Part shown: positions 9,028-20,029 of the stretch, piece after piece
Layout: the number at the start of each line of letters is the position of its first letter
How positions within the stretch are numbered: the stretch's first letter is position 1
Source of the DNA: Rhodobacter sp.
GTDB lineage: Bacteria; Pseudomonadota; Alphaproteobacteria; Rhodobacterales; Rhodobacteraceae
Reading direction: 5' to 3'
NCBI GenBank assembly: GCA_020251025.1
Contig: JADCDI010000063.1
Span: 1-52,068, forward strand
Length of the DNA stretch: 52,068 nt
The notes under the pieces: model-generated
What the model was told of the DNA's origin: nothing
The model's database searches: none
Seen by the model: the letters and a program-made list of their open reading frames with translations, nothing else
Position numbers and translations under genes: made by a program

Positions 9028-9651
9028 ATGACCCCCAAGCTGTTGCCCGGCATTCTTGCCATGGCGATCATCGTCGTCGCCTCCAACATCCTGGTGCAGC
9101 ACCTGTTCGGCCAATGGCTGACCTGGGGGGCCTTCACCTATCCCTTTGCCTTTCTTGTCACCGACCTGACCAACCGCTTTTACGGCGCACCCGCCGCCCG
9201 CCGGGTTGTCTGGGCCGGCTTTGCGACCGGTGTTGCCTGTTCGCTGGCCGGCACGCAGATCACCGGCGAAGCCGGCCCGCTGGTGACGCTTCGCGTCGCC
9301 CTTGCCTCCGGCACCGCCTTTCTGGCGGCGCAGATGCTGGATGTGACCGTGTTTGACCGGATGCGGACCGGTGCCTGGTGGAAAGCGCCGCTGGTCTCGA
9401 CCCTGCTCGGTTCGTCGCTGGATACGGCGCTTTTCTTCACCATCGCCTTTTCGGCCACGCTCAGCTTCATCGAGCCTGCGAACGACGTGTCCTGGGCCGG
9501 GGAACGGCTGGCGCTGCTGGGGGTCGGCCCTGCAGCGCCGCTTTGGGTTTCGCTGGCCGCCGCAGACTGGCTGGTGAAGCTGGCGCTTGCCTTGGCGGCA
9601 CTGGTGCCGTTCCGCCTGATCCTTGCGCGGTCAAACGCAAAGGTAGCGTGA
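9028..9651 (+). CDS. yhhQ: Queuosine precursor transporter (YhhQ/VUT family)
   Basis: A 207-residue inner-membrane protein with about six hydrophobic segments. Family motifs visible are NILVQHLFGQWLTWGAFTYP, FAFLVTDLTNRFYG and a later LLGSSLDTALFFTIAF. YhhQ (QPTR) imports queuosine precursors such as preQ0/preQ1 for tRNA queuosine synthesis. The ATG at 9028 gives the standard length; the frame continues upstream but without family similarity. It is followed directly by the arfB leader promoter, whose -35 starts 6 nt after the stop, so the two are separate units. Confidence 0.9.
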   Translation: MTPKLLPGILAMAIIVVASNILVQHLFGQWLTWGAFTYPFAFLVTDLTNRFYGAPAARRVVWAGFATGVACSLAGTQITGEAGPLVTLRVALASGTAFLAAQMLDVTVFDRMRTGAWWKAPLVSTLLGSSLDTALFFTIAFSATLSFIEPANDVSWAGERLALLGVGPAAPLWVSLAAADWLVKLALALAALVPFRLILARSNAKVA

Positions 9652-9657
9652 AAGCTT

Positions 9658-9686
9658 TTGACAAATACAAAATCTGTGCCACCCTT
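9658..9686 (+). promoter_or_regulatory. Promoter of the arfB leader RNA
   Basis: A perfect -35 TTGACA lies at 9658-9663. Seventeen bases on is ACCCTT (9681-9686), a poor -10. The -35 and the position just after the preceding stop support a start near 9693, 13 nt before the extended Shine-Dalgarno. The start site itself is inferred. Confidence 0.5.
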
Positions 9687-9705
9687 CTTGCATCGGCAAC
9701 ATTTT

Positions 9706-9722
9706 GAAAGGAGGTGATCCAG
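9706..9722 (+). promoter_or_regulatory. 17-nt extended Shine-Dalgarno complementary to the 16S 3' end
   Basis: GAAAGGAGGTGATCCAG is the exact reverse complement of the conserved bacterial 16S rRNA 3' terminus CTGGATCACCTCCTTTC. Normal sites pair over 4-7 nt. The AGGAGG core (9709-9714) is 7 nt from a GTG start at 9722, ideal spacing. The 16S sequence is known from general biology; no rRNA lies in this window. Confidence 0.8.
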
Positions 9723-9778
9723 TGTCTAGAGTGATGTTGGAGAGAGGTGTCGGGACAGTCGGCGGGGATGTGTTCTAG
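9722..9778 (+). CDS. 18-residue leader peptide ORF upstream of arfB
   Basis: GTG start and TAG stop encode MSRVMLERGVGTVGGDVF. It begins 7 nt after the AGGAGG core of the extended Shine-Dalgarno. The stop codon enters a small hairpin (AGGGG-CAGC-CCCCT, about 9777-9790). No family is recognised. Placement in a promoter-leader-terminator unit in front of a ribosome-rescue gene suggests a regulatory leader peptide, or a small RNA whose ORF is only a ribosome loading site. Translation is likely from the signal strength but unproven. Confidence 0.55.
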   Translation: MSRVMLERGVGTVGGDVF

Positions 9779-9848
9779 GGGCAGCCCCCTGGAAAGGCAG
9801 ACTGCTGATTGGGCTTGAAACCTAACTGGCCCATCTCCTTGGAACTCG

Positions 9849-9884
9849 GAAAGGGTCGCCCTTGCGGGCGGCCCTTTCTCTTTT
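9849..9884 (+). terminator. Strong intrinsic terminator/attenuator in the arfB leader
   Basis: A 13-bp stem (9849-9861 with 9866-9878, one G-U pair, loop TTGC) is followed by CTCTTTT. It ends 25 nt before the arfB ATG. Most leader transcripts should therefore stop here unless read-through is regulated. Just upstream, ATCTCCTT (9832-9839) could pair with the AAGGAG of the extended Shine-Dalgarno, giving a possible alternative fold. Confidence 0.8.
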
Positions 9885-9909: not shown

Positions 9910-10332
9910 ATGTTGAGGATCACCGATACGGTCTTTCTTGCCGATTGGGAGCTGACGGAAAGCTTCTCGCGCGCGTCCGGCCCCGGCGGGCAGAACGTGA
10001 ACAAGGTGGAAACCGCCGTGGAACTGCGGTTCGAGGCGGAACGCTCGCCCCATCTCAGCGCGGCGGTCAAGACCAGGCTGAAACGGCTGGCCGGGCGCCG
10101 CTGGACGCTGGACGGGGCCATCGTGATCCGTGCGGAAGAAACGCGCAGCCAGATCCGCAACCGGGACCTGGCACGAGAGCGTCTGGCAGAGATGATCCGC
10201 CCGGCCCTGGTCGCCCCCAGGCGCCGGGTGCCGACCCGGCCCACACCGGGCAGCCAGAAGCGGCGGCTTGCCCTGAAAGCCGTGCGCGGCAAGGTGAAGG
10301 CAGGCCGCGCCCGACCGGCGGAGGAGGAATGA
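9910..10332 (+). CDS. arfB: Alternative ribosome-rescue factor ArfB (YaeJ)
   Basis: A 140-residue peptidyl-tRNA hydrolase of the release-factor family that frees ribosomes stalled on mRNAs lacking a stop codon, a backup for tmRNA. The catalytic GGQ motif is in SGPGGQNVNKVET (residues 28-30). The C-terminal tail is rich in Arg and Lys (about 100-137), as needed to enter the empty mRNA channel. The start has only a weak ribosome binding site, in contrast to the leader. Its stop overlaps the next start (ATGA), so it heads an operon with a phospho-lyase-like enzyme and a kinase. Confidence 0.93.
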   Translation: MLRITDTVFLADWELTESFSRASGPGGQNVNKVETAVELRFEAERSPHLSAAVKTRLKRLAGRRWTLDGAIVIRAEETRSQIRNRDLARERLAEMIRPALVAPRRRVPTRPTPGSQKRRLALKAVRGKVKAGRARPAEEE

Positions 10333-16458: not shown

Positions 16459-16474
16459 ACCTGCCGCAGCAGGT
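16459..16474 (-). terminator. Small hairpin at the flgI stop codon
   Basis: On the minus strand ACCTGC-TGCG-GCAGGT is a perfect 6-bp stem with a tetraloop beginning at the last base of the flgI stop codon. There is no T-run, so it may protect the 3' end rather than terminate by itself. Confidence 0.35.
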
Positions 16475-17571
16475 CACTGCACGATGAACTCGGCGTGGAG
16501 CGCCCCGGCGGAGTTGATGCTTTTGAGGATGTCGATCATGTCGTTCGGCGCAACGCCCAACGCATTGAGCCCGGCCACCACCTGCGACAGGGTGGTTCCC
16601 CCTGTCACCATCGCAAGGCCCGTGCCCTTTTCCTTGGTCACGTCAATGGTGGTATCCGGCACCACCACAGTTCTGCCCTGCGCAAAGGGGTTCGGCTGTA
16701 CCACCTGGGGCGTTTCCTGCACGCTCAGCGTCAGATTGCCCTGCGCCACCGCAACTTCGCTGATCCGGACATCGGCACCCATGACGATGGTGCCGGACCG
16801 CTGATCCACAACGACCCGCGCCCGGGACTCGGGCGCTATCACCAGGTTCTCCACCCGGCCCAGAACATGGGCGGGAGAGCGCATGTTGGCCGCAACGACA
16901 TCCAGCGCCACGGTACCGGCATCGGTCATCACGGCAACCCGGCGTCCGAAACTGCGGTTGATCACATCCTCGATCCGCTCTGCCGTGGTGAAATCGGGTG
17001 TCCTCAGCGCCAGCCGGATCGATGTCAGCCCCGAAAAGTCGAAGGCAATCTCACGCTCCACCCGCGCGCCGGACGGGATTGAGCCGGATGTCGGCACACC
17101 TTCCACAACGCTGGCACCATCCCCTTCGGCGGAAAACCCGCCGGCCAGGACCGGCCCCTGCGCCACGGCATAGATCTGGCCATCGGCCCCGTTGAGCGGG
17201 GTCATGATCAGGGTGCCGCCGCGCAGGCTTTGCGCATCGCCGATCGCGGAAACGGTCACATCAATCTGCGATCCGGCACGGGCAAAAGGCGGCAAGGTGG
17301 CCGTCACGAAGACGGCTGCGACGTTCTTGGGACGAAACTGTTCGCCCGCCACATTCACACCCAGCCGTTCCAGCAGATTGGACAGGATCTCTTCGGTGAA
17401 CGGGCTGCTGCGCAGGGCGTCACCCGTTCCGTCAAGGCCGACCACAAGGCCGTAGCCGACCAGATCGTTGCCGCGCACCCCGTCGAATTCGACCAGATCC
17501 TTGATGCGGATATCTGCCGCCAAAGCGGGCAGGCCAACAAGCGAGGCAAGCAGCACCAGCAGGCGGATCAC
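16474..17571 (-). CDS. flgI: Flagellar P-ring protein FlgI
   Basis: A 365-residue periplasmic protein forming the P ring around the flagellar rod. A Sec signal peptide covers residues 1-18 (LLVLLASLVGLPALA|AD). Family motifs: RIKDLVEFDGVRGNDLVGYGLVVGL, GTGDALRSSPFT, AAVFVTATLPPFARAGSQIDV, LRGGTLIMTPL, and TLSQVVAGLNALGVAPNDMIDIL near the end. The start overlaps the flgL stop by 4 nt. Last gene of the leftward flgE-flgK-flgL-flgI operon. Confidence 0.96.
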   Translation of the reverse strand: MIRLLVLLASLVGLPALAADIRIKDLVEFDGVRGNDLVGYGLVVGLDGTGDALRSSPFTEEILSNLLERLGVNVAGEQFRPKNVAAVFVTATLPPFARAGSQIDVTVSAIGDAQSLRGGTLIMTPLNGADGQIYAVAQGPVLAGGFSAEGDGASVVEGVPTSGSIPSGARVEREIAFDFSGLTSIRLALRTPDFTTAERIEDVINRSFGRRVAVMTDAGTVALDVVAANMRSPAHVLGRVENLVIAPESRARVVVDQRSGTIVMGADVRISEVAVAQGNLTLSVQETPQVVQPNPFAQGRTVVVPDTTIDVTKEKGTGLAMVTGGTTLSQVVAGLNALGVAPNDMIDILKSINSAGALHAEFIVQ

Positions 17572-18569
17572 AGGTAATTCGCCAGGCTCAGGCGCGACAG
17601 GCGCGCGGTTACGGCATAAAGCGTGTCCAGTTGGCTTTCCGCCTCGGTCAGGGCTGTTGCGGCTTCGTAGGGGTCGGCAGACACGATCCCAATCCGCGCA
17701 ATCTGCAAGGCCGTCGCTTCGGCCGAATTGCGTGTCGCCGCACTCGCTATCCGCTCTTGCGCCGTGCCGATCCGCGCCGCCAGCGCGCCCCGCGCATCGG
17801 TCGCATCAAGCAGCACGGCCCCGGCGGTTTTCGCCAGTTCCGCGCGCTGGGCCGCATTTCCGCCCAGTATCCCCCTGTCCAGGATGGCCGCCAGGGCCAG
17901 CCCCCTGAGCGTATCGCGCACACCCGCATCGGCCGCCGTTGCATCCAGCGGAACCGCTTCACCCTCGGCCACCGTCAAGGGAGAAAGGGCAGGCCCGCCG
18001 GTATAGGCGACAGCCGCATAGCCGGACGGGTTGGCAAACCAGGCGTCGACCGCCGCTGCCACGCCCTGCGCGGTGGTTGCAGACGCGGCTGCGGCAACCA
18101 CCGCGTCAAGAATCACGTCTGCCGGGGCCAGGGCGGGAGAGCGCGTTTCGGTCCCGCCGAACAGGCTGCGGTCCCCGACCCGGACATTCAAAGTTGCCAC
18201 GGCAGAGCGGAACTGCGCCAGCGCATCCATGGCCACTGCATCGACCGATGTCGGGTTTCCGGGGCTTGCGACCGAAAACAGGGCGGAACCCAGCTTGCCC
18301 GACATGTCCGACACGGTGGCAAGCGCCGATTGCATGGCCTGCGTCGAAAGCGCGGCCTCGGTTGTGACGGATTTGAAGGCATCCAGCCGGGCCAGCGTCG
18401 CATCCAGTGCCGTCAGCGGGGTAAAGTCACCCTTTACGGCGCGTCCGATATCCCTGATGCGCCCCGTGGTCACCTCTTGCGACCGCTGTTCAAGTTCGGC
18501 CTTCAGCTGTGTCGTCTGGTTGCGCAAGGTAAAGCTGCGCGCAAGATCGCCGATGGAAGACAGCGTCAT
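17568..18569 (-). CDS. flgL: Flagellar hook-filament junction protein FlgL
   Basis: A 333-residue flagellin-like protein. The N-terminal helix (SSIGDLARSFTLRNQTTQLKA ... EVTTGRIRDIGRAVKG) and the C-terminal helix (SADPYEAATALTEAESQLDTLYAV) match the FlgL coiled-coil ends, with VGDRSLFGGTETRSPA in the middle. The ATG at 18569 follows the flgK stop by 2 nt; the frame upstream is antisense or out-of-frame flgK. FlgL connects the hook to the filament through FlgK. Confidence 0.9.
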   Translation of the reverse strand: MTLSSIGDLARSFTLRNQTTQLKAELEQRSQEVTTGRIRDIGRAVKGDFTPLTALDATLARLDAFKSVTTEAALSTQAMQSALATVSDMSGKLGSALFSVASPGNPTSVDAVAMDALAQFRSAVATLNVRVGDRSLFGGTETRSPALAPADVILDAVVAAAASATTAQGVAAAVDAWFANPSGYAAVAYTGGPALSPLTVAEGEAVPLDATAADAGVRDTLRGLALAAILDRGILGGNAAQRAELAKTAGAVLLDATDARGALAARIGTAQERIASAATRNSAEATALQIARIGIVSADPYEAATALTEAESQLDTLYAVTARLSRLSLANYL

Positions 18570-18571
18570 CG

Positions 18572-20029
18572 TTATATTCCCAGCAAGATTTGGATCATCG
18601 AATCCACGGTCTTGATAACCTGCGCATTGGCACCATAGGCGCGCTCGATCAGCAGCAGCGATTGCAGTTGCTGATCGGTGTCGACGCCTGCCGCAAGCTC
18701 GTCGGCGCGCAGCGAATCGTGGCGGGCTGCGGCATAGCTTTGTTCCGCCTCCGCCCCGTTCCGCGCCCGTGAGACATAGGACAGCACATCGGATGCAAGG
18801 CCCGAAAAACTGCGCGCCCCCGGCTCGAACCCGCCCGATGCCGGAGAGATGAAGGCGTTCAGGCGCCCGCGCAGCCCGGTCAGCAGCGCGGATTCGCCCG
18901 GCGGCCCCTCGGCGGTGGCACCGAGGCCATCGCGCAGGCGCCAAAGCGCGCCGCCCTTGGCCGGATCGGCTGCCGTATTGACGGCAAGCCGCCCTGCCAG
19001 TCCGGTTTCGGTTGCGGCATTGAAGGCCGCCCCGGCATCGGTGAACAGGCCCGGCGCACCGGCCGACAGCGTGGTGTCGACCGAAGGATCGGCAAAGCGG
19101 GCGATCAGGTCACGGGCCGCCGCATCCAGCCGCTTTTGCTGCAAGGGTGCCTCGATGTCGCGCAGGCGGAAATTCGCGGCCAGCGCCCCGCCGTCAAGCT
19201 TGCCGGACCCCTCGCCAAAGGTCACCGGCTTGCCGTTCATCGTCAGGCCGGAAAGCGCCCCCGAGTCCAGCGTCATGTCCGGGGTGATCTTGCCCACGGG
19301 CGTAAAGCCGAACAATGCGGGCCGACCGTCCAGCAGAACGGCACCGCCCGTTGAGATCAGCGCGATCCGCCCGGTCTCCCTGTCGATCTGGCGCAGGGGT
19401 ACGATTTCAGCGATCCTGTCGATCAACTGCTGGCGCTGGTCCATCAGGGGAGAGGCATCGCGGTCCGCGACAACCTGCTTGAGGATCTGTGCGTTCAGCG
19501 CCGCCACCTTGGCCAGGGTGTCGTTCAGCTCTTTCACATTCTCGGCAATCCAGTCATCCGCCCGCTCGCGTTCCATCTGCACGGCGATCGAGGCCTTGCC
19601 GACATGGTTGGCAAGCCCCTGCGCCGCCGTCAGAACCGCTGCCAGCCGCTGTTCGCTGTCAGGGCGACCGGATGCCGAGAGCAGGGCCTGATCCAGCCCG
19701 GCGATCTTGCCGCCAAGGGATGCCGCGTCCCCGGGCGTGCCGATCACCGCCTCCAGCCTGGCGAAGGCGTCGGCCAGCACGGCGCTGCCGGCCATGTTGG
19801 CCTGGGCGACCCTGCGATCCGACAACAGGATATGATCGCTCACCCGGAGAACGCCGGTAATCCCGACACCGTTTCCCGTTCCGCCCAGGCTGCGTGCCGC
19901 AAGCTGAATCTCGCGCCGCCCGTAGCCATCGGTCAGCGCATTGGCCACATTGCTGGACACAAGTTCGGCAGACCGGGCGCTTGCCTGCAGACCGGACATC
20001 GCACTCGACAAGGAAAGAGAAAGGCTCAT
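18572..20029 (-). CDS. flgK: Flagellar hook-associated protein FlgK
   Basis: A 485-residue junction protein. The N-terminus shows the rod/hook signature (LSSAMSGLQASARSAELVSSNVANALTDGYGRR), and the C-terminus ends in the helix VDTDQQLQSLLLIERAYGANAQVIKTVDSMIQILLGI, as in FlgK and other axial proteins. It is exported by the flagellar type III system and has no cleaved signal. It lies between flgE and flgL in the same direction. Confidence 0.94.
   Translation of the reverse strand: MSLSLSLSSAMSGLQASARSAELVSSNVANALTDGYGRREIQLAARSLGGTGNGVGITGVLRVSDHILLSDRRVAQANMAGSAVLADAFARLEAVIGTPGDAASLGGKIAGLDQALLSASGRPDSEQRLAAVLTAAQGLANHVGKASIAVQMERERADDWIAENVKELNDTLAKVAALNAQILKQVVADRDASPLMDQRQQLIDRIAEIVPLRQIDRETGRIALISTGGAVLLDGRPALFGFTPVGKITPDMTLDSGALSGLTMNGKPVTFGEGSGKLDGGALAANFRLRDIEAPLQQKRLDAAARDLIARFADPSVDTTLSAGAPGLFTDAGAAFNAATETGLAGRLAVNTAADPAKGGALWRLRDGLGATAEGPPGESALLTGLRGRLNAFISPASGGFEPGARSFSGLASDVLSYVSRARNGAEAEQSYAAARHDSLRADELAAGVDTDQQLQSLLLIERAYGANAQVIKTVDSMIQILLGI

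Follow-up and report, generated by a model that had tools for sequence, protein, structure and literature searches.

A conserved and probably translated RNA with a long Shine-Dalgarno site, distantly related to Caulobacter CC2171, in a Rhodobacter sp. genome

In this study, we describe a conserved, poorly understood and, as its sequence suggests, probably translated regulatory RNA in a stretch of 52,068 nucleotides from a Rhodobacter sp. draft genome (this whole stretch is hereafter called the window). The RNA appears to be a distant, divergent Rhodobacterales relative of the Caulobacter RNA CC2171. By comparing related loci, we showed that the element is conserved, that its short ORF has a constrained start codon, frame and stop codon with no detected constraint on the peptide, and that no neighbouring gene is constant. 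From these comparisons we infer that the RNA is transcribed in this organism and actually translated, and that it works as a switch with an output. Our preferred reading, which we hold with middling confidence, is that of a stand-alone regulatory RNA in which the loading of ribosomes on a mini-ORF indifferent to its peptide would set the fold of the molecule, and the fold would set the action of its 3′ part.

The locus and its parts

The original prediction had pointed to a 17-nt match to the anti-Shine-Dalgarno end of 16S rRNA in front of an 18-codon ORF, and both are real. As read from the window sequence, the match GAAAGGAGGTGATCCAG occupies positions 9706-9722 of the plus strand and its final G doubles as the G of the GTG start codon (9722-9724); the 18 codons (9722-9775) are closed by a TAG (9776-9778), the ORF with its stop thus covering 9722-9778 on the plus strand. 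According to the ORF list, the locus is framed on the same strand by an upstream ORF that we take to be yhhQ, of the queuosine precursor transporter family (9028..9651), and by a downstream ORF outside the RNA, presumably arfB (9910..10332).

Between the upstream ORF and the match, a conserved block at 9658..9685 (+), made of TTGACA, 16 nt with TGTG, and CACCCT, is a putative promoter. A TGTGn sequence is the rule for extended -10 promoters. The block TTG[AC][CA]-N12..16-TGTG was recovered in 75/110 loci of the family, in 0/110 reversed sequences and in 0/30 stretches far upstream, and transcription is expected from this sequence to start near 9692. In many of 30 family loci, the spacer (9664-9679) holds an inverted repeat resembling CACA-AAATC-TGTG, which may be an operator or merely an extended -10.

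At the other end, sequence and fold reveal a terminator-like hairpin with a T-rich tail at 9850..9884 (+). A strict script asking for a perfect GC-rich stem and a T tail found such an element in 44/110 family loci and 65/145 wider loci, and in 0/30 control windows. Upstream of this hairpin, the minimum-energy fold places CTGGCCCATCTCC (9826..9838, +), an internal anti-Shine-Dalgarno mimic able to pair with the Shine-Dalgarno site; an anti-Shine-Dalgarno-like heptamer is found in the 3′ part of 95/110 family loci versus 3/29 control windows. Positions 9690-9887 fold more stably than shuffled sequences do, with a z of -4.5 and 0/200 shuffles as good. Altogether, these boundaries suggest for this organism a transcript of about 190 nt, from about 9692 to 9884. 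A scan with consensus promoters and terminators lists neither the promoter at 9658-9685 nor the terminator at 9850-9884, so that both rest on conservation and fold; it lists instead a single plus-strand promoter site, at 9704-9732, inside the element.

Distribution and relation to CC2171

A BLAST search with 261 bases as query and a threshold of E <= 0.001 matched the element in 173/198 genomes of the same family (Rhodobacteraceae). Among these 173 matching loci, 110, mostly the better-scoring ones, were read, 30 first and 80 added later. Loci L002-L031 and L181-L260 were collected by BLAST with the 261-base query and L032-L061 by means of the Rfam model; L062-L180 were picked by the motif itself, and the conservation of their Shine-Dalgarno site is therefore circular.

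With at most one mismatch, the motif GAAAGGAGGTGRTCCNRTGTC was found in 57/289 genomes of the class and in 75/398 genomes of the phylum. When the latter were split by hand, the matches lay in 75/135 genomes within the class and 0/263 outside, while the reversed control pattern matched one genome in each of the class and phylum searches. Across those 75/135 in-class genomes, unrelated short ORFs follow the same 5′ module. One genome, G209, carries two copies of the motif (G209:C1:805112 and G209:C1:2922049), the other matching genomes one each; the copy in L046, from the genome with two copies, precedes an ORF of the MSHCH type. Scanning named genomes yielded at least 119 stretches with the motif. 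Among the 80 titles listed, 76 are Alphaproteobacteria of many orders, three are given as Proteobacteria only and one as Gemmatimonadota. The latter, the sole clearly out-of-class title among the 80 listed, belongs to a MAG with an exact motif (L091:5050-5070), and one neighbour of this motif groups with ORFs flanking three loci of the Rhodobacterales type, so that mis-binning is possible.

The element aligned end to end with the Rfam model RF01867 (CC2171, a Caulobacter sRNA), with 34.4 bits and an E-value of 1.2e-5. At E <= 0.001 this model matched 61/289 genomes of the class, with 9/289 over its cut-off, and it gave one match in 14 control genomes, in Caulobacter vibrioides. In the alignment, the 5′ module CAAC...GAAAGGAGGUGAUCC-N-RUG-UC is present in the window and the terminal hairpin is aligned, with two non-standard pairs marked. 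The window RNA thus resembles CC2171 by an identical 5′ stretch GAAAGGAGGUGAUCCAGUGUCU, a similar length and a 3′ terminator-like hairpin, but it differs by a score that misses the 75-bit cut-off and by the long-range helix CAUUGUC/GACAAUG of CC2171, the model positions of which are gaps in the window alignment. Moreover, CC2171 is a small RNA gene in Rfam and the accessible text of the papers naming it describes it without a coding role, whereas the window RNA carries a translated-looking ORF.

A profile built from 50 Rhodobacteraceae rows matched the element in 149/149 other loci at E below 10 and gave 10 matches located elsewhere, the best with an E of 1.8. All 31 Sphingomonadales-type (SHG) rows were matched at E 1e-3 or worse. 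Outside Rhodobacterales, the matches usually cover model positions about 3-40 only, that is the 5′ module, and common descent of the whole RNA does not follow from them.

Searching the literature by name and more widely, we found no functional study of CC2171. This RNA reportedly stems from the 2008 work of Landt et al. In the accessible portions of the sources, Landt et al. 2008 is cited as a survey of Caulobacter sRNAs, Rfam 15 attributes one covarying pair to CC2171 (PMC11701678) and MH_s33 is a predicted CC2171 match in a study of Mesorhizobium (PMC5596092).

The ribosome-binding site and its possible competing partners

Sought by pattern, the 3′ end of 16S rRNA had 0 matches in ten relatives (G175, G034, G104, G051, G150, G184, G479, G318, G342 and G401), the copies of which seem to lack rRNA or to have had it removed. 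As the organism's own 16S 3′ end is unreadable, the end of an S. meliloti oligonucleotide, GGCUGGAUCACCUCCUUUCU..., given in the accessible text of its source (PMC6943124), served as the 16S reference. The site had been put forward as exceeding a normal one, and it does lie beyond chance: the 3.3-Mb draft genome contains a single copy of AAAGGAGGTGATCCA, where simple arithmetic gives a chance expectation of about 0.006. The weaker form AAGGAGGTG followed by RTG 4-12 nt later has four sites in the genome, the present one included.

The predicted length of 17 nt holds for the window and not for the conserved part, which is a 15-nt Shine-Dalgarno core (9706..9720, +) complementary to the 16S 3′ tail, GAAAGGAGGTG[A/G]TCC, intact in 97/110 family loci read. 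The remaining 13/110 show one or a few base differences or are slightly shorter (e.g. L026). The frequent A-to-G change in GAAAGGAGGTG[AG]TCC still lets the base pair with the 16S tail, as G-U. Over the class, position 16 is A in 91, G in 49, T in 6 and C in 3 of 149 loci. In only 14/107 family loci (column counts for this site use 107 of the 110) and 16/149 loci class-wide is the preceding base an A, which would extend the pairing, and the conserved complementarity thus reaches GGAUCACCUCCUUUC only.

This site is also predicted to have partners within the RNA. The best of these outranks 95% of shuffles in 35/102 family loci (5 expected) and in 31/142 loci of the wider set (7 expected), 14 of these 31 being of the Rhodobacterales type after hand sorting. 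The same sorting gave a rank of 5 or better in 17/118 non-Rhodobacterales loci (about 6 expected) and 0/27 Sphingomonadales-type loci. In these computations, the covering of the Shine-Dalgarno site by an internal partner does not appear to be general across the class. Computed pairing energies, which ignore the costs borne by the ribosome, were -26.8 kcal/mol with the 16S tail versus a family mean of -16.1 kcal/mol with the internal partner. As the former pairing is the stronger, a free 30S subunit could open the site.

A consensus fold, for which 50 of 93 non-redundant loci were aligned, contains a hairpin hiding the start codon, UCCAGUGU with AUAUUGGA, with little covariation because both segments are nearly invariant. 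It also offers the Shine-Dalgarno site a rival partner in the terminator arm, an 8-bp alternative in which one pair is broken in 12/50 rows. In other orders, codons 3-7 were seen by eye to pair with a segment preceding the terminator (CAUUGUC/GACAAUG; CAUGGUUCAG/CUGACCAUG). This pairing ranks 5 or better against shuffles in 12/41 MSHC-type, 3/27 Sphingomonadales-type and 2/120 Rhodobacteraceae-type loci. In loci of the KRCHLA type (L088, L113, L124, L156, L165 and L178, two titled Bradyrhizobium and one Xanthobacteraceae), the 14-codon ORF has its own UGUCACCUC, predicted to pair with the Shine-Dalgarno site as a local hairpin in the four that were folded (L088, L113, L124 and L156).

We can propose the following role for this RNA. 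Positions 9692 to 9884, approximately, would be the gene of an independent RNA about 190 nt long, the 5′ end of which, a maximal ribosome-binding site with a start codon, would load a ribosome onto the mini-ORF. The frame, length and stop of this mini-ORF would matter, and its peptide would not. In Rhodobacteraceae, the internal anti-Shine-Dalgarno mimic and the local start-codon hairpin could close the site; ribosome loading and self-pairing would then compete to determine the fold, which in turn would decide the role of the 3′ part, be it to pair with other RNAs or to affect stability or termination. The original prediction is partly supported: the idea of a ribosome-binding small RNA that it raised fits the conserved site and the translated-looking mini-ORF.

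A more specific version, which we consider rather unlikely, would make the RNA, with its full complement of the 16S tail and, in Rhodobacteraceae, its own copy of the anti-Shine-Dalgarno sequence, a class-wide ribosome sensor: depending on how many 30S subunits are free, or on whether the 16S 3′ end is intact, it would take a loaded, open form or a closed one, and the anti-Shine-Dalgarno-like segment thereby freed or hidden would act on other mRNAs or on the RNA's own termination. SisA-D of Caulobacter are likewise sRNAs with an anti-Shine-Dalgarno-like pairing motif, but the accessible text describes them without a super-Shine-Dalgarno site or an ORF (PMC12559287). More broadly, the CC2171-like set may consist of class-wide, probably translated RNAs that keep a ribosome-binding site and a stop and not a peptide. 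If true, the Shine-Dalgarno helix would serve here as a signal, which is not its usual use, and would do so in a class that can often dispense with it; in Caulobacter, 75.4% of start sites are reported to lack a Shine-Dalgarno sequence, as given in the accessible text (PMC4117421).

The short ORF and its neighbours

The ORF is exactly 18 codons long in 104/110 family loci, which, with the intact site described above, provides the conservation in relatives that the original prediction had named as a test. Its first codon is GTG in 105 loci, ATG in four, TTG in one and CTG in none (n=110), and codon 19 is TGA in 48, TAG in 38 and TAA in 18, with six non-stops (n=110). TGG was never seen at codon 19, while 18.3 occurrences would be expected if positions varied independently. 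On a 97-row tree, parsimony counts 33 changes in the identity of the stop codon, for a mean of 40.9 and a minimum of 33 with shuffled labels. Over the same stretch, the other two frames contain a stop in 63/110 and 62/110 family loci. The wider set comprises 145 loci, Rhodobacterales-type ones among them. Here, no locus has a frame-0 stop within the first 13 codons, versus 65 and 56 loci for the two other frames, and the ORF ends at codons 14-27 in 141/145 loci, L149 being an exception with 59 codons. The length of the ORF goes with lineage, with 18 codons in 114/120 Rhodobacteraceae-type and 26/27 Sphingomonadales-type loci and 14 codons in 8/8 KRCHLA-type loci. The constrained start, the open frame and the avoidance of TGG at the stop suggest that ribosomes read this frame and that the ORF is translated. 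Among dual-function RNAs (coding and base-pairing), of which the window RNA may be one, rnTrpL/peTrpL of S. meliloti is likewise a small RNA with a short ORF, of 14 aa; according to the accessible descriptions, rnTrpL differs in being a leaderless trp attenuator, whereas in the window RNA conservation is highest at the Shine-Dalgarno site and the downstream gene varies.

If the ORF is read, the locus could simply be a small mRNA whose functional product is the 18-aa peptide, the strong Shine-Dalgarno site merely maximising output. The conserved frame and stop would agree with this, as would the somewhat more constrained N-terminal half: in the 104 family rows with exactly 18 codons, omega is 0.64 for codons 2-13, 1.14 for codons 14-18 and 0.84 overall. 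S. meliloti SEP1, a novel ORF of 23 aa that may be a candidate for the same group, had the top translation efficiency of its set in the accessible text of that study (PMC10117765). However, the overall value is near those of the other frames (0.76 and 0.77), 158/300 column-shuffled alignments of 40 of the 104 rows had an omega as low, and the peptides of different orders look unrelated. The omega test thus detected no peptide-level selection, on a short alignment that limits its power. On this null result, with the same limit, we rejected the peptide as the conserved product, and we regard a functional peptide as unlikely.

Conversely, the RNA might be non-coding and pair with the 16S tail or with other RNAs, the ORF being a by-product. 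It is indeed nucleotides and not amino acids that are conserved, and the fold is stable (z -4.5). Against it stand the restriction of the start to GTG, ATG and TTG, the avoidance of TGG at codon 19 and the class-wide open frame. On these grounds, a purely non-coding RNA was rejected, and we judge this alternative quite unlikely.

Control of arfB, the role first envisaged for the leader, did not survive comparison as a general one. An arfB gene lies downstream on the same strand in 24/30 Rhodobacteraceae and 14/28 further Rhodobacterales-type loci (38/58 in total) and in 0/121 other loci, counts that could miss a diverged arfB or one beyond a contig end. The element thus stands without arfB in 6/30 and 14/28 (20/58) of the Rhodobacterales-type loci and in 121/121 of the others, and a general arfB leader was rejected. 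In one locus, an ArfB-like ORF lies upstream on the other strand. A yhhQ homologue lies upstream in 27/30 Rhodobacteraceae, 25/28 further Rhodobacterales-type and 0/121 other loci, and in the 30 Rhodobacteraceae loci it usually ends about 58 nt before the Shine-Dalgarno site. Given its changing neighbours and its own promoter-like block, the RNA would seem to be an independent gene, located before arfB in one order, and the link to arfB is at most a lineage-specific, local by-product.

A narrower possibility is that in Rhodobacterales the RNA is a leader controlling read-through into arfB: a Shine-Dalgarno site free of ribosomes would pair with the terminator arm, and arfB would be transcribed. 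In the window, arfB starts about 25 nt beyond the T-rich tail of the hairpin, with no promoter listed between the two, so that read-through may feed it. Moreover, a Shine-Dalgarno base and a terminator-arm base covary in the 50 aligned rows, as A-U in 17 and G-C in 16, and arfB follows in the majority of Rhodobacterales-type loci given above. UpsM of Rhodobacter sphaeroides offers a precedent by analogy: as described in the accessible text, it is a short RNA with a terminator before a gene, mraZ, that is reached by read-through about once per 100 transcripts, and it has a possible small ORF (PMC5089854). By the same description, it differs in the gene that it precedes and in a possible ORF that spans the terminator, with the start codon before it and the stop beyond it (PMC5089854). 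Yet the RNA persists in all the loci lacking arfB, the covarying pair is broken as A-C in 12/50 rows, apparently by lineage, and the terminator hairpin would be far stronger than the 8-bp alternative. We therefore hold arfB read-through control to be decidedly improbable.

Finally, a chance match or an rRNA remnant has practically no likelihood given the conservation in family and class and the lack of any rRNA match in the window, where the sole above-cut-off Rfam match is a tRNA, a 16S fragment being rejected accordingly. Elsewhere in the window, three long ORFs on the minus strand (16474-20029) resemble what we take to be flagellar P-ring and hook-associated proteins.
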